Virus record (IMG/VR): IMGVR_UViG_3300025151_008489
Coordinates: 1 to 24,038 of that record
Reading direction: 5' to 3' (one strand)
DNA length: 24,038 nt
Source: a virus
Numbering within the stretch: the stretch's first letter is position 1; every line of letters begins with the position of its first letter. The position numbers and the translations under genes are program-made. Under the pieces are notes generated by a model. The model was not told where the DNA came from, did no database searches, and saw nothing but the letters and a program-made list of their open reading frames with translations. Shown here piece after piece: positions 6,595 to 24,038 of the stretch.

Positions 6595-9500
6595 ATGTGT
6601 GTAAAGTGCGACTACAAATTAAAATACAAACAAGGTAAGAAATTCACCAGTTATATTCCACTGCATGGACATTCCACTTATTCTCAAGGGGATGGTGTTA
6701 CGAAGATAGAAGATATAATGACGCGTGCAAAAGAGGTTGGTGCTCCCGGTATATCATTAACCGAACATGGTAATATGTCGTCCTTCTATAAATTCTACAA
6801 CCATGCAGTGGAGACTGGAATAAATCCTATTGTAGGTTGCGAATTATATACAAATGACTTATATCATTCAGACAATGAAAAGTTCCTTGAATTAAAAAGA
6901 GGTACTGCAGATGTAATAGGTGATGCAGGCGAACATTTGGATAAAACAGATGCAGCAAATAATCACACACTAGTATATGCAAAAAATTATGAAGGTGTAA
7001 AAAATCTTCTTAATATATCTAATGAAGGTTTTGACAATTATTATAGAAAGCCTCTTTCAAGTATGGAAAGAGTGTATAATGGACTTAATGAAAATAACAT
7101 AATTACAACAGGCTGTTTACAGTCAAAATGGAATCAGCTTGTTTTGGCAGGTAAAGAGGTCGAGGCATTAGAGTTAATTAAAAAATATCGAGATAAGTTT
7201 GGTGATGATTTTTATTTGGAGGTTCAGTTAAACAATTTGGATATTCAAATGAAATGTAATAATTTCTATAAAAAGGTTTATGAAAAAACAGGAATCAAAC
7301 CTGTATTTGCACTTGACTATCATTATGCAAATAAAGATGATTGGTATATACAATATCTACTTTATGTAATACGTCAACGTGAAACTGTTAAGTCATATAC
7401 ACCACAGGACTGGTTTTATACTGTACATTCATTATACATAAAACAAATAGATGAGATTTATGCAGAGGCAGAAAAATATGGTATGGATAAAAAATTCCTT
7501 GAATTATCAATTGATTCTACTTTTGAAATAAATGACAAGGTAAAAATAGAAATGCCTAAATATCCAGATAATTTTCCAAAGTATCATGAGGACAAGTCAT
7601 TAAGCGAATCTGAATTTATGTCAAAGTTAAAAGTAAAATGGGTTGAAAAAATACAAAACGGTTTACTTCCGGACAACAATAAAGAATATACAGACAGACT
7701 TAAATATGAATTGGATATTATTAAATCAAAAGGTTTTATAGACTATTTCTTAATTTTAGATGACTTACTTAATAACTTTGTATATAAGGTAGGCGGTGCA
7801 ACTGGTGCAGGTCGTGGTTCTGCTGGTGGCTCTCTTGTATTATTTGTATTAGATATTACAAAAATTGACCCAATAAGACATAATCTAATTTTTGAACGAT
7901 TCTTGAATCCTGCTCGTATTGACCCTGCCGATGTTGATTTAGATATAGATTCTGATACTCAAAAGAAATGTGAGGATTATCTAAAGGACAAGTTTGGTAA
8001 ACAGCGTGTCTGTCATATTGCAAACTTTGGTAAATTTGGTGCCAAAACTACAGTAAAGGATTTATGTAGAATACATGAGCTAGACTTTGTATTATCAAAT
8101 AAACTTACAGGATATTTTAGTGATGACCCTAATTCACCTATAGATTTTGAAATGAAAAATGCATTTAACATTGCGCAGAAAAAAGGCGAAAAGGATTTAA
8201 TGCAGTTTATCAAGGACAATAAAGAATTATTCTTAAAAATTGCACCTAAAATGGTAGGTATGGTTAGGCAAACAGGTAGGCATGCATCAGGTATTTTGGT
8301 AAGTAATAAAGATTTGAATTGTTCAGAAATACCTTTACTGCGACTTAAAGGTGAGACTGTTACAGGTGTACAAGAAGGTGGTGATGAACGTGAGGTTAGT
8401 GAACTTGGATATTGCAAGTTGGATATTCTTGGACTTAAGGCCGCGTCTGTTATTAACGATACATTCAAATTGATTGAGAAAAAGCATGGTGAATCTGATT
8501 TAGAACAAAGAATTCTGAAATCTAATTTCGATGACAAAAAGGTATATGATGAGTTCGAAACAGGTAACTGTAAGGATATCTTTCAATTCGGTTCGGACAA
8601 TATGATAAATTTAATTAGAACAATTAAACCTAAAAGTATTGTTGACTTATCTTCTATTAACGCAATGTTTAGGCCCGCCATAATCCAGGCAGGAGGAATT
8701 GACGAATATATTAAAAACCGCGAAAATCCGGAAGAGGCAAAATTTTTGCTAGACCAAAAATCTCCAATGCTATGGGATATACTTGGTGAATCATTTGGCG
8801 TACCTATATTTCAAGAGCAGATTATGTTTATTCTACAAAAGATTGGCGGCTTTACACTTGCTGAAGCAGATGGTGGTAGGAAAATATTAAAGCTACTTCA
8901 TAAAGGTAATCAAGACAAAAAGGATAATTTTTATGATATGCTTGATAGATTCAAAAAAGGTGCCAAAGCAAATGGTATGAAGGATAGAGATATAGATGAA
9001 CTACTTGATGTGCTAGGTAAATATTCAGAATATTCATTTAATAAATCTCACTCTTTGGCATACGCAATGAATGCTTATATATCAATGTGGCAAAAGGTAC
9101 ATTTTCCTTATGAATATTATACTGCTCTTCTTAACCACTCAACAAATGCAGAATTAAGTTGGTTTGTAAAACAAATTAAAAAGAAAGGTATAAAGTTTAA
9201 TGAATTTGAAATAGGTCAGACAGGTAATAGTTTTGAAATAGATTATGACAATAAATCAATAAAGTTTGGTCTTAATCTTGTAAAAGGTATACCAGATAAG
9301 GATGCTGCAATTATAAATTCTGTAAAACCCGGCGGTGTCAATACATTAACAGAGCTTGTTGACTTTATTCTTGACAATAAAATTACAAAACGTACATACG
9401 AACCTTTATGCAGGTTAGGATATTTCAAAGGAATCATGAAAAATTCAAGAGTTCTTGAGGATATAATCAATGCATGTAGAAACAAAAAGAAATCTCAGAC

Positions 9501-11523: not shown

Positions 11524-11524
<1 letters not shown>
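10811..11524 (+). CDS. Cys-rich protein of unknown function, partner of the ThyX-like gene (237 aa)
   Basis: Not recognised. The N-terminal 60 residues look beta-rich (DVEILSWNPDSQMITYKITG), then come helices with many charged residues (80-155). The C-terminal third is Cys-rich: C168-X5-C174-X13-C188-X4-C193, then C209 and C223, with the striking NAFGCLFAGCGRWKSHTEF segment. This could hold zinc or an iron-sulfur cluster; neither is shown. Ten Cys in 237 residues is high for this window. The gene overlaps the ThyX-like gene by 8 bases and the GroES gene by 1 base (TAATG), so it is translated together with both. The overlap with a ThyX-like protein that lacks RHR suggests a two-subunit enzyme, which is only inference. 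Confidence 0.75.
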
Positions 11525-13438
<1,914 letters not shown>

Positions 13439-15304: not shown

Positions 15305-15511
15305 ATGGCAAAGCAAAAATTAACATCTGTAAAGGTTAACGAGGAGTCTTGGAATAATTTCAAGAAAATGTCGATAGATGAAAAAATTACATTTAGACAA
15401 TTGGTTGATATATCAATCGAAGAGTTTATTAACAATAAGAGTTTTAGAAACACAATAAAAGAAAAGGTTATAGAAAATGGCAAAAAAGAAAATACTATTA
15501 CTATCAGATGA
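15305..15511 (+). CDS. Ribbon-helix-helix (Arc/CopG-type) DNA-binding protein (68 aa)
   Basis: Likely a small dimeric transcription regulator. Residues 5-11 (KLTSVKV) form the DNA-reading beta strand, NEESWNNFKKMSIDEK the first helix, and TFRQLVDISIEEFINNKS the second; this is the usual strand-helix-helix pattern with the conserved turn before the second helix. The C-terminal tail is Lys/Glu-rich. TGGAG lies nine bases before the ATG. The gene overlaps the following glycosyltransferase by 35 bases, and a palindrome is just upstream, so it may control the glycosyltransferase cluster. Fold and length are convincing for 68 residues; the target is inferred. Confidence 0.75.
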   Translation: MAKQKLTSVKVNEESWNNFKKMSIDEKITFRQLVDISIEEFINNKSFRNTIKEKVIENGKKENTITIR

Positions 15512-16880
15512 TTTAAGAATTCATTCTGGTGTCGGAACAATGTCAAAATCTTTTGTACTAGGTACAGTTAAACAATTTGACTGGGTACAAATGGCAGGTG
15601 CAATCAAACATCCTGAAAAAGGTAAGGTTGCAGATTTATCTGAAGATACAAATAAAATATTAGGAATCGATGATGCTTATATAAAACTTTATCCTGTAGA
15701 CGGATATGGAAATCAGGCTATATTAAGAGAAGTTATGGCAATAGAAAAGCCTGATGGTATTATGCATTTTACTGACCCAAGATTCTGGGATTGGCTATAT
15801 GCAATGGAGCACGAAATTAGACAGAATATTCCTATCATGTATTATAATATATGGGATGACCTTCCTTTCCCACATTGGAATGAAAATGCTTATGAATCTT
15901 GCGATGGCTTGATGGCTATTTCAAAGCAGACATATAATATCAACAAACATGTTTGCCAAAGAAAACCAAGAGTAGAAGGAAAAGACCTGTTTTATGTGCA
16001 ACATGGTATAAATGAAAATGTATTTTTCCCTATATTAGGAGAAGATGCTGAATTTCAAAAATTTAAGAATGAAGTACTACATGGAAAAACTTACGACTTT
16101 ATAGCGTTTTTCAATAGTAGGAATATAAGACGTAAAGGTACCTCTGATTTGCTATCTGCATTTGGAAAATTCAATAGAGAAATGACAGAAGAGCAGGCAT
16201 CGAAAACAGCAATCATATTACATACAGACCCAGTTGACAGTAATGGTACTGATTTACCTGTATTGGTACAAAAGCTATATCCTAAAATGAATGTTATATT
16301 TAGTACGCAGAAATTGCAACCGGTTCAAATGAATTGGTTATATAATATTGCAGATGTAGTTTGTAATCCATCTTCAGCAGAAGGCTTTGGTTTAAGTCAC
16401 ATGGAAGCTATGATGGCTGCAAGACCTACAATTACAACTGTTGTTGGAGGTTTACAAGACCAATTAGGATTCAAAGTTGATGGCGAGGAATTATCTGTTA
16501 AACACTTCACAGCAGAGATTCCAAGTAATAGTACAGGTGAAATATCAAAAGAGCATGGTGAATGGACGTATCCATTGTGGCCGAACCAAAGTTTACAAGG
16601 CTCACCTCCAACTCCATATATCTATGATAGTAGACCTGAAATAAATGATATTGCATCAGGATTAAAATATTGGTATGGACAATCAAAAATGGAAAGAACT
16701 AGAAAAGGAATTCTAGGAAGGAATTGGGCTATCGAAAATAAATTTACAGAAGATGGAATGAATGAGGCTATGTTAAATGCAATTCAAACTACGTTTGATA
16801 ATTTCAAACCTAAAGCAAATTATGAACTTATAGATTTAGACGAAACAAATAAAGTCTATCCAACAGGAGTATTAAGATAA
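15477..16880 (+). CDS. Glycosyltransferase, GT-B fold (GT4-like), first of cluster
   Basis: Transfers a sugar from a nucleotide donor to an unknown acceptor. The N-terminus KKILLLSDDLRIHSGVGTMS (3-22) is a GT-B opening strand and glycine loop. The C-terminal donor site has NSRNIRRKGTSDLLSAF near 215-231 (where GT4 enzymes carry GR-x-x-x-KG) and the EX7E motif E302-GFGLSHM-E310, followed by AARPTITT. The length (467 aa) is normal. It overlaps the regulator gene by 35 bases and the next glycosyltransferase by one base. No signal peptide or membrane span is seen, so it is cytosolic. The acceptor could be a phage structural protein, a host-like polysaccharide, or DNA; the sequence does not say. 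Confidence 0.88.
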   Translation: MAKKKILLLSDDLRIHSGVGTMSKSFVLGTVKQFDWVQMAGAIKHPEKGKVADLSEDTNKILGIDDAYIKLYPVDGYGNQAILREVMAIEKPDGIMHFTDPRFWDWLYAMEHEIRQNIPIMYYNIWDDLPFPHWNENAYESCDGLMAISKQTYNINKHVCQRKPRVEGKDLFYVQHGINENVFFPILGEDAEFQKFKNEVLHGKTYDFIAFFNSRNIRRKGTSDLLSAFGKFNREMTEEQASKTAIILHTDPVDSNGTDLPVLVQKLYPKMNVIFSTQKLQPVQMNWLYNIADVVCNPSSAEGFGLSHMEAMMAARPTITTVVGGLQDQLGFKVDGEELSVKHFTAEIPSNSTGEISKEHGEWTYPLWPNQSLQGSPPTPYIYDSRPEINDIASGLKYWYGQSKMERTRKGILGRNWAIENKFTEDGMNEAMLNAIQTTFDNFKPKANYELIDLDETNKVYPTGVLR

Positions 16881-18178
16881 TGAAACCAAGATTAGTTATA
16901 AGCTGCCCATCAACAAGCAGAAGTGGTTATGGAGACCATAGTAGAGATTTAATTCGAAGTTTAATTGATATGAATAAATTTGATATTCATGTTTTTGACC
17001 AAATTTGGGGTAGTTGCCCTAAAGACGCATTAGGCGAAGATGATAAAGATATAAGCTCTTTGATTATAAAAAATCCTCAACAATTTTTGGCTGAAAAACA
17101 GCCAGATATATGGATTCAAGTTACAGTACCAAATGAATTCCAACCTGTAGGAAAATACAATATAGGAATTACGGCAGGAATAGAAACAACTCTTTGCGAT
17201 GCAACTTGGATTCAAGGCTGCAATAGAATGGATAAAGTTATAGTACCTTCAGAGCATGCAAAATATGTATTTCAAACTGCGACATATAAAGCAATTAACC
17301 CGCAAACAGGACAGGAAGATTCAAATGCACCTGAATTAAAATTAGAAGTACCTGTAGAGGTTTTATTTGAAGGTTTAGATATGGACTTTTTCAAAAAGAC
17401 TAAAGAAATACCTAGTACAATAAAATCAACTTTAGATTCTATAAAAGAAGATTTTTGCTTTTTATTCTGTGGCCACTGGCTAAATGGTGTTATGGGACAG
17501 GATAGAAAAGATGTAGGTATGACAATTAGAGTTTTCTTAGAAACATTCAAAGGGAAATCAAAAAGAAACATGCCAGCTTTAATACTTAAAACTTCTTCTG
17601 CAGGTTTTTCAATTGGAGAAAGAGAAGAAATAATTAAGAAAATAAAAGCCGTAAGAAGTTATGTAGAGCATCAAGGTGATTTACCTAGTATATATTTCTT
17701 GCATGGTGACTTATCAAAAGAAGAGCTTAATGGATTATATAACCATCCTAAAGTAAAAGCTATGGTATCGTTTACAAAAGGTGAAGGATTTGGTAGACCT
17801 TTATTAGAATATAGCGTTACAGGTAAACCTACAATAGCTTCAAATTGGTCTGGTCATATAGACTTTTTATCTGCTTATGGTATAATGCTTCCAGGTAAAT
17901 TAAACAAGGTTCATGAATCAGTTGTTTGGGATAAAGTTATATTAAAAGATTCTGAGTGGTTTACTGTAGACTACGGATATGCTTCAGGTATATTAAAAGA
18001 TGTACATAAGCAGTATAAAAAATATCATGAAAAATCGAGAAAACAAACGCAATATGTAAAAGATAATTTTACACTGAAAGAAATGACAAAGAAGTTTGAA
18101 GAAATAATGGATAATTCTGTTTTACCTTCATTTGACGTTAAACTTCCAGCAATTGAGGAGATGCAAACTTATGAATAA
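16880..18178 (+). CDS. Glycosyltransferase, GT-B fold (GT4-like), second of cluster
   Basis: Related in layout to the previous enzyme but clearly different in sequence. The opening RLVISCPSTSRSGYGDHSRD (4-23) gives a GT-B strand plus glycine loop with a His. The donor-site motif is E302-GFGRPLL-E310 in FTKGEGFGRPLLEYSVTGKP, followed by the SGHIDF segment. FLFCGHWLNGV, around residue 195, is the start of the C-terminal Rossmann domain. At 432 residues the length is normal. It starts at the TAATG junction with the first glycosyltransferase, and its last codons overlap the next gene by 8 bases. Two successive GT4-like enzymes suggest that they add consecutive sugars. Substrates are unknown. Confidence 0.87.
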   Translation: MKPRLVISCPSTSRSGYGDHSRDLIRSLIDMNKFDIHVFDQIWGSCPKDALGEDDKDISSLIIKNPQQFLAEKQPDIWIQVTVPNEFQPVGKYNIGITAGIETTLCDATWIQGCNRMDKVIVPSEHAKYVFQTATYKAINPQTGQEDSNAPELKLEVPVEVLFEGLDMDFFKKTKEIPSTIKSTLDSIKEDFCFLFCGHWLNGVMGQDRKDVGMTIRVFLETFKGKSKRNMPALILKTSSAGFSIGEREEIIKKIKAVRSYVEHQGDLPSIYFLHGDLSKEELNGLYNHPKVKAMVSFTKGEGFGRPLLEYSVTGKPTIASNWSGHIDFLSAYGIMLPGKLNKVHESVVWDKVILKDSEWFTVDYGYASGILKDVHKQYKKYHEKSRKQTQYVKDNFTLKEMTKKFEEIMDNSVLPSFDVKLPAIEEMQTYE

Positions 18179-19106: not shown

Positions 19107-21947
19107 ATGAAGGTAATTTTTATAGCTGATTTTTTTGTAAATCAAGTTTTTGGTGGGGGTGAGCTTGTTAATGAGGAGATAATAGACGGGTTAAAAGCAA
19201 AAGGTGTAAACGTAGAAAAAATAAATTGCGAAAATTTTGATGCAAGCAAATCAGATAAAGATGCAGAATATTTAATAGGCAACTTTATATCTCTTTCACC
19301 TTTCAACAAAGATTATATAAAAAACAACCTAAATTATTCAATTGTAGAACATGACCATAAATATGTAACAGATAGAGATGTTTCAGGATATGAAAATTAT
19401 ATTGCACCTTCATATAAAATAATAAATTCAGAATTCTATAAAAAAGCTAAAAGAGTTTATTGTCAATCATATTTACATAGTAACGTTGTAGCAATGAATT
19501 TAGGATTGGACAATGTTGTAAATCTTTCAACAAGTATATGGTCTGACGAGCACCTTGACTTAATAGAATCTTATTGCGGTACACCAAAAAATGATAAAAC
19601 TATGATTTTAGGTTCTAGTAATAAGATAAAAAATACGCAGGGATGTATTGACTACTGTAGTAATAACAACATCGACTATGACGTTGTAGGACCTCTTCCT
19701 TATAATGAGCTAATGAAAGAGATGTCAAAATATAAAAGCGTTTTGGTTTTACCAGGAGTACTTGAAACTTTTAATAGATTTTTGGTTGAGGCGAGAATGC
19801 TAGGCTGTGCTATAAAAACAAACAATAAAAATGGTTGTACTTCAGAAAGTTGGTTCCCTAAATTAAAAGGAAAAGAGCTTATAGATTTTATTAGAAAATC
19901 AAAAGAAGATTTTATAGAATCATTTATATCAGAAGAACAAAAATTTCATAAGATAAACTATGGTAATGAAAATCATTTTAAGATTATTATACCTCTTTAT
20001 AATGTAGAAAAGTGGATTGATAGATGTTTAGGCTCTGTTATGTCACAGAATTATAAAAATTTCGAATGTATAGTATTAGATGATATATCTACTGACAAGA
20101 GTGTAGAAGTAATTAAAAAAACTATCAAACAAGATTCTAGATTTACGCTTATTGAGAATAAAGAAAAAGCTCTTGCTCTTAAAAATATATACGATGGTAT
20201 AAAATATTCAAAGCCAGATGAAGAAGATATAATTGTAACGCTTGATGGTGATGATTGGTTTGAAAATGACAATGTACTTACAAGATTAAATTCTATATAT
20301 AATAACGATGATTGTTGGATAACATACGGAAGCTATATAGAATATCCTTCAAATACAAAAGGTAAATTTGCAAGACAAGCACCTCAAAATATAATAAACG
20401 AAGGTTCATATAGAAAAAATGAATGGTATTTTTCTCATCTAAGAACATTCAAATATCACTTATGGAACAGGATTAAAAAAGAAGATTTATTAGATTCTGA
20501 AGGTAATTTTTATCCTATGGCTTGGGACCTTTCATTTATGTTTCCAATGTTAGAAATGTCAGGTAACAAAAGTAGATATATCGACGATATAATGTATGTA
20601 TATAATCTTACAAATCCTATAAACGACCACAAAGTCAATCATAATTTACAGCAAAGATTAGAAAGTGAAATAAGAAATAAAAAACCTTATAAAAATCTAC
20701 AAAAAAATAAATTGAATCTGTTTAATTGGAGCCGATTTGATTTGCCTATAAAAAGTATATTTCTTAATATGCTAGGTAAAAATACAACATTTGGTAAAGA
20801 TATATACAAAGAGCACTTGAGGTTATGGAATGGATTTAAGGAATATAATAATCCAAATAAAAATACATACGATGCATTTGAATTAGATTTTATTAAAATA
20901 TATAATGATATGAAATCAAATAACTTTGATTGGAATAAATCGCCAGTTGTTGTTGACAATGAAAATTATCTTCTTAATGGCTCTCATAGAACTGCAGCTG
21001 CATCAAAGCTAGATATAGAGGTGCAAACAGTAGAAGGTGTTAATATAAATGACGGTCAAAAAGTATGTGATTATAATATGTTTCAAGAGCTAGGACTTAA
21101 TCAGGATTATATGGATGCTGCAGCACTTGAAATGGTAAGAAACAATAAGGATTTACTTGTCGTGAATATATTCCCTGCAGCAGTAGGTAATAGAAGAGAG
21201 TTAGAGAGCATATTAAATCAGACGTGTAATATTGCATACAAAAAACATATCAATTTTAACACAAAAGGGGCTCTGAATTATATGTTTCAATTATATAAAG
21301 GAGAACCTTGGGCTGGAAATAGAAATAATAATTTTGCAGGTTTTAGAGAGAAGATGGGATATTGCTTTCCAAGCGATGGCGATATGACAATGTATTTAAT
21401 AGAACTAAAAGACAAATCATTAGCAGTAAATATAAAAGAAAGAATAAGAAAAATATATGGAATAGGAAATCATTCAGTTCATATTAACGATACTTACGAA
21501 GAAACATTAAGACTTTCTCGATGTTTATTAAATAAAAATAGTATTCACTTTCTAAATAATTCTCAGTTTAGAGACTATCCTAAATTTTATAATTCATTAA
21601 AATATTATGAAGACTACATTGATAAAAATGGATTGAATCACGAAGATTATTGTATCACAGCTAGTGGAGTTTTATCTTTATATGGATTGAGAGAAGCTGC
21701 TGATGTAGATTATATTCACGATTGCGCTCATGAGATTATAGACCCCACAGACAATATACATTCTCATAATAAATACGGAGTAGGTATATATAAAAAATCT
21801 TATCATGATATTATACACAATCCAGAAAATCATTTTTATTACGGAAATATAAAGGTTGCATCACTAGATATTATCAAGCAGCTAAAAGAATATAGAGGTG
21901 AAGAAAAAGACAGAGTAGACGTTTCACTAATGGAGACTGTAATATGA
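19107..21947 (+). CDS. Multidomain glycosyltransferase (GT-B-like + GT2 + ParB-like + nucleotidyltransferase-like), 946 aa
   Basis: An unusual fusion. Residues 1-285 resemble a shortened GT-B enzyme: VIFIADFFVNQVFGGGELVN opens it, and LPGVLETFNRFLVEAR near 215-230 takes the place of the usual EX7E helix. Residues 291-500 are a GT2-type GT-A domain: FKIIIPLYNVEKWIDRCLGS, then LDDISTD and the metal-binding LDGDDW (379-384). Residues 611-635 (KSPVVVDNENYLLNGSHR and the following AAAS) look like a ParB/sulfiredoxin-type GSHR motif. Residues 775-870 end in ASGVLSLYGLREAADVDYIH, a pattern resembling nucleotidyltransferase-fold proteins (S...LYGxR...DxD). The two glycosyltransferase parts are fairly clear; the last two are weaker. 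The start has AGGGAA at 19096-19101 and the end shares ATGA with the next gene. Probably a processive or multistep glycan enzyme; substrates unknown. Confidence 0.8.
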   Translation: MKVIFIADFFVNQVFGGGELVNEEIIDGLKAKGVNVEKINCENFDASKSDKDAEYLIGNFISLSPFNKDYIKNNLNYSIVEHDHKYVTDRDVSGYENYIAPSYKIINSEFYKKAKRVYCQSYLHSNVVAMNLGLDNVVNLSTSIWSDEHLDLIESYCGTPKNDKTMILGSSNKIKNTQGCIDYCSNNNIDYDVVGPLPYNELMKEMSKYKSVLVLPGVLETFNRFLVEARMLGCAIKTNNKNGCTSESWFPKLKGKELIDFIRKSKEDFIESFISEEQKFHKINYGNENHFKIIIPLYNVEKWIDRCLGSVMSQNYKNFECIVLDDISTDKSVEVIKKTIKQDSRFTLIENKEKALALKNIYDGIKYSKPDEEDIIVTLDGDDWFENDNVLTRLNSIYNNDDCWITYGSYIEYPSNTKGKFARQAPQNIINEGSYRKNEWYFSHLRTFKYHLWNRIKKEDLLDSEGNFYPMAWDLSFMFPMLEMSGNKSRYIDDIMYVYNLTNPINDHKVNHNLQQRLESEIRNKKPYKNLQKNKLNLFNWSRFDLPIKSIFLNMLGKNTTFGKDIYKEHLRLWNGFKEYNNPNKNTYDAFELDFIKIYNDMKSNNFDWNKSPVVVDNENYLLNGSHRTAAASKLDIEVQTVEGVNINDGQKVCDYNMFQELGLNQDYMDAAALEMVRNNKDLLVVNIFPAAVGNRRELESILNQTCNIAYKKHINFNTKGALNYMFQLYKGEPWAGNRNNNFAGFREKMGYCFPSDGDMTMYLIELKDKSLAVNIKERIRKIYGIGNHSVHINDTYEETLRLSRCLLNKNSIHFLNNSQFRDYPKFYNSLKYYEDYIDKNGLNHEDYCITASGVLSLYGLREAADVDYIHDCAHEIIDPTDNIHSHNKYGVGIYKKSYHDIIHNPENHFYYGNIKVASLDIIKQLKEYRGEEKDRVDVSLMETVI

Positions 21948-22762
21948 AAAAATTAAATGTACCTTTTTATGTTTCTACAAACAATAAGCATATGAGATGT
22001 CTTCAGGTTTTTGTAGAATTATTTAATAAATTTACAGATAATAGCGAGCTTATTATATTAGGATATGACAAGCCAGACTTTGAGCTTACAGAGAATTGTA
22101 AATTTGAGTCGATGGGGACACAAGGACCTGTTGAAGAATGGTCAACTGATTTAAGAAAATATTTTATAAAAAATGCTCCCGAATATTTTATATATGGCAC
22201 AGAAGACACATTCTTTTATAAGGAAATGAACCACGATTATATAAACTATTTGATAAAGGTTGTAAAACTAAACCATCAAATTGGCAAGGTTCAGCTATGT
22301 GATGTAGCAGAAGAGAATGGATTTGCAATAGAAGAAAATCGCCATTACAAATCTAGAATATTAACAACTGTAAATGTCCCAGAATTAAATATCGACTTCG
22401 ATATGCACGTACTAATGAAATCTAATTATTCAATAAACTGTCAACTTTCGCTATGGAATAAAGAATTTTTATTAAAATATTTGGAAGATGGTTATTCACC
22501 TTGGGATTTTGAAATAAAAGGCTCAATTGCAGCCTATGATGAGACCGAATGGTATTCAATAATACTTGATAGGCAGTTTGGTATATTTAAGAAAGAAGGT
22601 TTTTGTGGAAGCTTAGATGTCAAAGAGCAATGGACATATAAAGAACATTGGTTTGATAGCTTAGAAAACGAATGGCTTAAGACACATATAAAAGAATGGG
22701 GAAATCCTGTGATGGCAGGACCAAATGGGCAATTTGGAACATCGAAAATTAGCGAAAGGTAA
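21944..22762 (+). CDS. Putative glycosyltransferase-like protein (272 aa)
   Basis: Likely a cytosolic sugar-transferring enzyme, assigned from pattern and context. The N-terminus NVPFYVSTNNKHMRCLQVFV and the ELIILGYDKPDF strand suggest a GT-A-like fold. TEDTFFYKEM around 86-95 could be the metal-binding acidic turn (E87-D88). SLWNKEFLLKYLEDGYSPWD with a following F-E (169-190) matches a motif seen in uncharacterised glycosyltransferase-like proteins, where a Trp-containing loop lies by the donor. No membrane segments. ATGA overlap with the large multidomain gene, then one base to the nucleotidyltransferase gene. Specificity cannot be predicted, and the GT-A assignment is tentative. Confidence 0.65.
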   Translation: MKKLNVPFYVSTNNKHMRCLQVFVELFNKFTDNSELIILGYDKPDFELTENCKFESMGTQGPVEEWSTDLRKYFIKNAPEYFIYGTEDTFFYKEMNHDYINYLIKVVKLNHQIGKVQLCDVAEENGFAIEENRHYKSRILTTVNVPELNIDFDMHVLMKSNYSINCQLSLWNKEFLLKYLEDGYSPWDFEIKGSIAAYDETEWYSIILDRQFGIFKKEGFCGSLDVKEQWTYKEHWFDSLENEWLKTHIKEWGNPVMAGPNGQFGTSKISER

Positions 22763-22763
22763 T

Positions 22764-23426
22764 ATGAAAAATATAGTTATATTAGCAGCAGGTCCACCAA
22801 AACCAAATAGAAACAGACATTTAGAATTATATAAAGGTCGAAAAATTATTGATATAGTAATTGAAAGATGTACAATTGAAAACACAAAGTTATATGCTGT
22901 TGTTGATGAGAGAAATATCGAACTAATAAACCATATAAATGACAGAGTAAAATTACTTTATCCTAAAGATGGTAAAATATATAGTACATTTGAATCTGCT
23001 CTTTCTGTAGAAGGAGACACAATTATGGTTGTCGGAGACCTTGTAGGGTTAAAAGAAGGTGATATAAATAGATTTGTAGAATCTAAATACAAATCAGCAA
23101 CTTGTATATATAAGCAGGCATGGGGTTTGCATATAAGGTCTAAATATCCTAATCTAATAAGACGAGGTGATTGCGGTGATTGTATATCAATGATAGGTCA
23201 AGAACATAAAAAAGAATTTTTAGGTGAAAATAATCAAATTATGTATAAATGGCTATTTCGCCAATTTTATCCAGAAAAAGAAATAAACCACGAAATTTAC
23301 AATGATGTAGGAACATTTATGTCATACGCATTTTTTGAAAAAATATGGTCGAATCCATTATGTAGTGAATTCGGTGACAAAGGCTCTGTATATTTTGAAC
23401 ACAAAGTATATGCAGATAACGACTAA
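22764..23426 (+). CDS. NTP transferase-like protein (nucleotidyltransferase), sugar or phosphonate cytidylyltransferase type
   Basis: Member of the MobA/sugar nucleotidyltransferase fold, which activates a sugar-1-phosphate or similar alcohol with CTP or another NTP. The N-terminal KNIVILAAGPPKPNRNRHLE carries the LAAG loop that binds the nucleotide. VVGDLVGL near 90 gives the acidic metal-binding turn. It is 220 residues, normal for a single-domain enzyme. The start at 22764 has AAAGG just before it and is one base after the previous stop; the in-frame ATG 39 bases earlier lies inside the previous gene. The next gene encodes a PEP-mutase-like enzyme, and in Treponema denticola a cytidylyltransferase is fused to PEP mutase. 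A CMP-phosphonate or CDP-sugar product is therefore possible; the substrate is inferred. Confidence 0.75.
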   Translation: MKNIVILAAGPPKPNRNRHLELYKGRKIIDIVIERCTIENTKLYAVVDERNIELINHINDRVKLLYPKDGKIYSTFESALSVEGDTIMVVGDLVGLKEGDINRFVESKYKSATCIYKQAWGLHIRSKYPNLIRRGDCGDCISMIGQEHKKEFLGENNQIMYKWLFRQFYPEKEINHEIYNDVGTFMSYAFFEKIWSNPLCSEFGDKGSVYFEHKVYADND

Positions 23427-23436
23427 AATATTTTTA

Positions 23437-23461
23437 TATGTCGTAAAAATTTATTATATTA
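23437..23461 (+). promoter_or_regulatory. Copy E of the repeated 25-bp intergenic element, putative phage promoter
   Basis: TATGTCGTAAAAATT, TAT and TATATTA align to the other copies. It lies in the 57-base gap after the nucleotidyltransferase gene, preceded by a T-run. The next ATG is 22 bases downstream, with AGAGGA at 23471-23476. The PEP-mutase-like gene therefore seems to start its own transcript. Confidence 0.65.
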
Positions 23462-23483
23462 AATAAAAACAGAGGAATTAAAG

Positions 23484-24038
23484 ATGAAGACGATTAAAGA
23501 GTTATTAAACGACAGTACTAAAACTAATATAGTTATTGGTGCAAACAATGCTATGATAGCTGAAATAGCTTTACGAGCTGGTTATGATGGTGTTTGGGTA
23601 TCTAGTTTCGAATCACATGCTTGGAATCTATTACCAGATGCAAACATTCTAAACACTGCAGATTATTTTGACACAATCAGTAAAATTAGTGACAGAATAA
23701 GTATACCTATTTTAGTTGATGCAGATGAAGGCGGACCAAGTTCTATCAATACAATTAGAATGGTTAGAGAATATGAAAAGGCAGGGGCTTCTGCAATGTG
23801 TTTTGAAGATAATCCTTCTCCAAAGAGATGTTCTTTTTATGGAATGAAGCAGAGTTTAGAGACACCAGAGATTATGTGCGGTAAAATTAAAGCTGCAGTA
23901 GAAAAAAGATTGGATAAAGATTTTGCTATAATTACTAGAACAGAAGCCTTAATTCAAGGACATGGACATGATGTTGCAATGGAAAGAGCTAGAATGTATA
24001 ACGATGCTGGCTGTGATGCTTTTTTGATTCATAGTAAA
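23484..24038 (+). CDS. PEP mutase/isocitrate-lyase superfamily enzyme, 3'-truncated
   Basis: A TIM-barrel enzyme of the family that interconverts PEP and phosphonopyruvate or cleaves C-C bonds. 185 codons are open to the right edge. Compared with mussel PEP mutase the following are kept: the Mg-linked Asp (D52, in LPDAN), D79-A-D81, E108-D109, K114, S117, R152 in TRTEAL and H183 in LIHSK. The signature EDKX5NS reads EDN-X5-CS, however: the Asn is C116, and a Cys at this point is the catalytic residue in isocitrate and 2-methylisocitrate lyases (KRCGH type). The IHSK segment favours a phosphono substrate, and the Cys favours a lyase, so the reaction is uncertain. AGAGGA lies seven bases before the ATG. 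It follows an NTP transferase and glycosyltransferases, which suggests a phosphonate-bearing glycan. Confidence 0.85.
   Translation, partial: MKTIKELLNDSTKTNIVIGANNAMIAEIALRAGYDGVWVSSFESHAWNLLPDANILNTADYFDTISKISDRISIPILVDADEGGPSSINTIRMVREYEKAGASAMCFEDNPSPKRCSFYGMKQSLETPEIMCGKIKAAVEKRLDKDFAIITRTEALIQGHGHDVAMERARMYNDAGCDAFLIHSK

Follow-up and report, generated by a model that had tools for sequence, protein, structure and literature searches.

Introduction

Phosphonates carry a direct carbon–phosphorus (C–P) bond, and the formation of this bond is a rare chemistry so far described, as far as we could find, in cells. In the bacterial phosphonyl-tailoring (Pnt) pathway, for example that of Treponema denticola (PMC6697681), the PEP mutase (Ppm, also PepM), phosphonopyruvate decarboxylase (Ppd), 2-aminoethylphosphonate (AEP) transaminase and PntC nucleotidyltransferase act in this order, beside glycan genes. 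Cytidylylation by PF12804 or PF01467 enzymes is the rule in bacterial phosphonate clusters (PMC6697681), and further known cytidylyltransferases are fosfomycin Fom1, a cytidylyltransferase-PEP mutase fusion, and phosphoethanolamine cytidylyltransferase Pcyt2. The lid motif EDKX5NS is used to define PepM (PMC6697681, PMC8931226). The papers we read tie phosphonates to bacterial surfaces, and cell-surface phosphonates in marine bacteria have been proposed to reduce viral lysis (PMC8931226).

Here we describe a T4-like bacteriophage which carries, beside its sugar-transferring enzymes, a gene set that looks able to build and activate AEP. Comparable sets are carried by other phage lineages, and phages therefore probably make phosphonates to decorate a surface. 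No earlier report of phage or viral phosphonate biosynthesis was found among the open-licence papers searched.

Results and Discussion

Gene organization of the window

The window analysed is a whole virus record of 24,038 bases. An earlier note had pointed to a PEP-mutase-like gene next to an NTP transferase and glycosyltransferases, with a copy of a promoter in between, and had suggested a possible phosphonate pathway whose decarboxylase would have to lie past the right edge. The relevant features are as follows.

15477..16880 (+), GT4 glycosyltransferase (PF00534, E 7e-12)
16880..18178 (+), GT4-like glycosyltransferase, a weak match (PF00534, E 8e-5, below cut-off)
19107..21947 (+), fusion of a GT2 glycosyltransferase (PF00535, E 1.7e-23) with a ParB-like / NDPK-fold (predicted) / C-terminal module
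21944..22762 (+), conserved gene of unknown family in the glycan cluster, just upstream of the nucleotidyltransferase-fold gene
22764..23426 (+), gene with a predicted nucleotidyltransferase fold, PntC-like by fold only; an upstream in-frame ATG at 22725 is possible
23423..23473 (+), repeated phage promoter-like element, the fifth of five copies in the window, directly before the PEP-mutase-family gene
23484..24038 (+), PEP-mutase-family gene, first 185 of 289 codons, cut by the contig end; lid motif EDNPSPKRCSFYG

The PEP-mutase-family ORF is real and runs off the right edge. It matched Pfam PEP_mutase PF13714 at E 6e-27, far over the cut-off, and NCBIfam PEP_mutase TIGR02320 was its best family at 3.9e-42, although below the curated cut-off because the protein is truncated and divergent. 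The neighbouring gene at 22764-23426 had no Pfam, NCBIfam or PHROG match. Its AlphaFold model, of modest confidence (pLDDT 65), nevertheless showed the nucleotidyltransferase fold, as Foldseek gave a probability of 1.00 to MobA-like, IspD and PntC entries, and structural alignment to PntC gave Z 12.4 and rmsd 3.7 A over 189 aligned residues, tied with GlmU and IspD. So the NTP transferase named in the earlier note is right at fold level. All five viral relatives found for this gene lie on PEP-mutase-bearing contigs. The gene at 21944-22762 also had no Pfam, NCBIfam or PHROG match, but it is kept in the phage loci L002, L003 and L004/L005.

The promoter-like element was confirmed as well. Direct-repeat families (D1/D2) and a motif scan revealed a ~31-nt element with the consensus TTATATGTCGGAAAAATTTSTTATATTA at 1905, 6542, 9952, 13903 and 23434 of the window. 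It occurs 9 times in the sister contig G001 and 12 times in the sister contig G002, always on the + strand, while none was found in the more distant contigs G004 and G006.

The C-terminal ~410 residues of the 946-aa glycosyltransferase fusion (window 20718-21947) had no Pfam match but gave a high-confidence model (pLDDT 90), the middle domain of which has the predicted nucleoside diphosphate kinase fold (Z 12.1, rmsd 2.9, 118 aligned) and an NDPK-like active-site string (KHSVHINDTHEET vs N..HGSDS...E). This domain is flanked by a ParB-like part and a C-terminal part with GLRE..DxDYLH. We considered whether this module could be a phosphonate-specific LicD-like transferase. However, related modules were found in 43 viral loci, and 37 of those contigs have no PEP mutase or PhnW match. 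As the fold hits are to NDPK, the idea of a phosphonate-specific module was not supported, with the reservation that the last ~120 residues were not assessed alone. Elsewhere in the window, GroES- and GroEL-like genes were recognized by eye from the translations at 11524-13438.

Predicted phosphonate genes beyond the right edge

The window aligns over its full length with two longer phage contigs, G001 (94.8%) and G002 (93.9%), which continue past its edge. G002 carries a T4-like terminase, portal, major head protein and tail sheath. The downstream genes described below are thus read from sister contigs of the same phage type and not from the window itself. After the complete 289-aa PEP-mutase-like protein come two ORFs of ~143 and ~165 aa, which are the N- and C-halves (PpdN and PpdC) of phosphonopyruvate decarboxylase, a 323-aa class-V aminotransferase, a 130-aa CTP_transf_like protein (Pcy), and then a cupin, an FkbM methyltransferase, a short DegT protein and a GDP-mannose 4,6-dehydratase. 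Hence, the decarboxylase and the transaminase are present past the right edge in the sister contigs, and the interpretation in the earlier note is supported.

TIGR03297 was the best family for both decarboxylase halves (E ~1e-30), and the ThDP-associated D and N residues (GDG/GDA...N) are present. Each half scored ~107 bits against a curated full-length cut-off of 312.5 bits, which a split protein can hardly reach. The aminotransferase matched TIGR03301 (PhnW/AepZ) best (E 6.8e-48) with invariant K173 and R298, including the conserved PLP lysine, and its closest structures were PntC-AEPT and PhnW, although its score of 163.8 bits is also below the curated cut-off of 360.8 bits. The CTP_transf_like protein was closest to human phosphoethanolamine cytidylyltransferase (E 2e-39) and also matched the Fom1 domain (E 9e-12). 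In contrast to Fom1, it is encoded by a separate gene, and there are no fosfomycin genes.

The same core block of PEPM-PpdN-PpdC-AT-Pcy recurs in the more distant phage contigs L004/L005 and L007, with a methyltransferase gene inserted in L007. Full-length PEPM proteins of these divergent phages are 81-98% identical to that of L002. The genes are under purifying selection, as dN/dS was about 0.05 for four genes between L002 and L003. It is very unlikely that the block represents non-functional passenger genes or contaminating bacterial DNA, even though the contigs are environmental and the enzyme diverges from the standard motif. The genes lie on the same contig as T4-like head and tail genes, the catalytic ORFs are intact and conserved among divergent phages, a phage promoter-like element stands in front, and the base composition matches the phage (30.8 vs 30.1% G+C) and not the related Acidimicrobiia operon at 63%.

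The cysteine lid of the PEP-mutase-like enzyme

A full-length copy in L002, 99% identical to the window's gene product, matched PF13714 at 2.6e-38 and scored 247 bits with TIGR02320, below the curated equivalog cut-off of 319.55 bits. Its closest solved structures were Streptomyces PepM 5UNC, phosphonopyruvate hydrolase 2DUA and mussel PepM 1M1B. Mussel PepM residues W44, S46, D58, D85, D87, E114, K120, S123, R159 and H190 are all kept, while K116 is replaced by N, N122 by C and G47 by S (L48F was also noted). The lid therefore reads EDNPSPKRCS, invariant in the four full-length phage copies aligned, instead of EDKX5NS. We thus place the enzyme beside, and not inside, canonical PepM.

Because of this lid, the enzyme might be another lyase of the isocitrate lyase/PEP mutase superfamily, supplying a non-phosphono 2-oxoacid which the ThDP enzyme decarboxylates and the aminotransferase aminates (for example to a sulfonate or other polar amine) before activation by the cytidylyltransferase. 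A cysteine also occupies the position of Asn122 in the KRCGH of methylisocitrate lyase (Acinetobacter PrpB, EDQVGAKRCGH), and the split ThDP subunits also resemble sulfopyruvate decarboxylase ComD/ComE. However, the phage protein has KRCSF instead of KRCGH and scored only 153 bits with the methylisocitrate lyase (prpB) model, ~95 bits less than with the PEP mutase model, so that a methylisocitrate lyase identity was rejected. Phosphonopyruvate decarboxylase also beat the sulfopyruvate models for both halves, the aminotransferase is PhnW/AepZ-like, and cytidylyltransferase partners are the hallmark of phosphonate clusters. A non-phosphono lyase is thus considered unlikely.

We next asked whether the cysteine lid occurs in cells. 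A lid-pattern scan of 84,980 bacterial and archaeal genomes revealed a large bacterial family with EDN[IV]FPKRCSFY, often as ~560-aa ORFs, and all 80 loci returned matched a profile built from the phage proteins. Where at least 3 kb was visible on both sides, 12 of 13 loci carried both decarboxylase halves, so the lid alone does not argue against phosphonate synthesis. In Sorangium the cysteine-lid protein is fused to an NTP transferase and stands near decarboxylase halves, a second NTP transferase and a CDP-alcohol-phosphotransferase-like protein, the last two being identified by eye. This context strongly suggests that cysteine-lid enzymes feed phosphonopyruvate decarboxylase. The family is missed by the EDKX5NS filter, which implies that motif-filtered surveys of phosphonate producers are undercounts.

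In the phylogenetic tree, the phage clade (100/100) was sister to Actinomycetota sequences (99/90). The Acidimicrobiia loci L095 and L133, among the nearest cellular relatives, have the identical five-gene order PEPM-PpdN-PpdC-AT-Pcy, with 45-55% identity for four proteins but only 26% for the aminotransferase, and no glycosyltransferase cluster in the stretch seen. As the phage genes have phage-like base composition, the acquisition is not recent.

Predicted pathway and destination of the phosphonate

Taken together, the window is most likely the left part of a phosphonate-tailoring locus of a T4-like myophage, and we hold this reading with good confidence, although every reaction, the product AEP and its attachment to a glycan are inferred from homology and gene order without biochemical or 31P data. 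From its own promoter-like element, the phage would express a PEP-mutase-like enzyme turning phosphoenolpyruvate into phosphonopyruvate, and a two-subunit ThDP-dependent decarboxylase which makes the unfavourable first step irreversible and gives phosphonoacetaldehyde. The class-V aminotransferase would then give AEP, and one or two nucleotidyltransferases, namely the downstream Pcy2/Fom1-like cytidylyltransferase and the PntC-fold (predicted) protein at 22764-23426, would make CMP-AEP. The locus has one gene of each general type (PF12804 and PF01467), the first by fold only. CMP-AEP would finally be used to put AEP on a glycan assembled by the neighbouring glycosyltransferases, with the GDP-mannose 4,6-dehydratase and DegT genes further downstream. 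Compared with the Treponema pathway, the step order is the same, but the genes are unfused and carried by a virus, the PEP mutase has a Cys lid, the decarboxylase is split in two and an additional Pcy2/Fom1-type cytidylyltransferase is present. No LicD or CDP-alcohol phosphotransferase gene was found in this phage group, so the transfer step has no identified enzyme, but as the contigs are fragments this absence is not proof.

It is also possible, though more tentative, that AEP is made but not for a glycan of the virion, and instead feeds host metabolism (auxiliary metabolic genes) or a phosphonolipid, or remodels the host surface to exclude competing phages. Given the proposed effect of cell-surface phosphonates on viral lysis (PMC8931226), a phage could impose such a surface on its host, and the CDP-alcohol-phosphotransferase-like protein in Sorangium is suggestive of a phosphonolipid. 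On the other hand, the phage locus is embedded in glycosyltransferase and nucleotide-sugar genes, LicD genes are found in other phage phosphonate loci, and no CDP-alcohol phosphotransferase was found in the phage contigs. As host surface and virion glycan cannot be told apart from sequence, this alternative overlaps with our preferred reading, and any benefit, such as altered virion adsorption, superinfection exclusion or evasion of glycan-directed defence, remains inferred.

Comparable loci in other phages

A scan with standard PEP mutases was then performed and gave 13 further IMG/VR contigs. Eleven of them carry a PEP mutase with an ED[KN]...NS-type lid, ten of these carry decarboxylase halves or a fused decarboxylase, and most also carry a cytidylyltransferase. 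Five of these contigs carry T4-like terminase and one, G047, a tail sheath, while larger contigs without such hits (G045, G046 and G048) may not be viral. One PEP mutase, that of the viral contig L203, reached 321.4 bits and passed the curated TIGR02320 cut-off. In several contigs the aminotransferase is replaced by an iron-type alcohol dehydrogenase (L203, L204 and L208), and LicD genes stand just before the PEP mutase (L204, L205 and L208), as expected for a hydroxyethylphosphonate tailoring route, which we consider likely. An SU10-like adaptor gene is located just downstream in L204. Meanwhile, an Acinetobacter 'phage' hit looked like host propionate-operon DNA, and the short fecal records MT837901 and MT836947 are unverified as viral.

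These loci raise a broader possibility, which we consider about as likely as not. Several phage lineages may have independently acquired phosphonyl-tailoring pathways, in AEP and hydroxyethylphosphonate versions, and may put phosphonates on their own virion glycans, or on the infected cell's surface, as an adsorption or counter-defence trait, while a cysteine-lid class of PEP mutases missed by the EDKX5NS filter may be widespread in Nitrospirota, Planctomycetota, Acidobacteriota, Myxococcota and Acidimicrobiia.

The named record of Vibrio phage Va2 (MW073017) is a tail-sheath-bearing phage record annotated with a PEP mutase. At 7101-8201 and 11902-13206 it has an intact fused phosphonopyruvate-decarboxylase-like gene and the PEP mutase, either side of ribonucleotide reductase genes. 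The PEP mutase of Va2 is only ~32% identical and has the lid EDKNPSAKINS, and no aminotransferase or cytidylyltransferase match was found beside it in the stretch examined.
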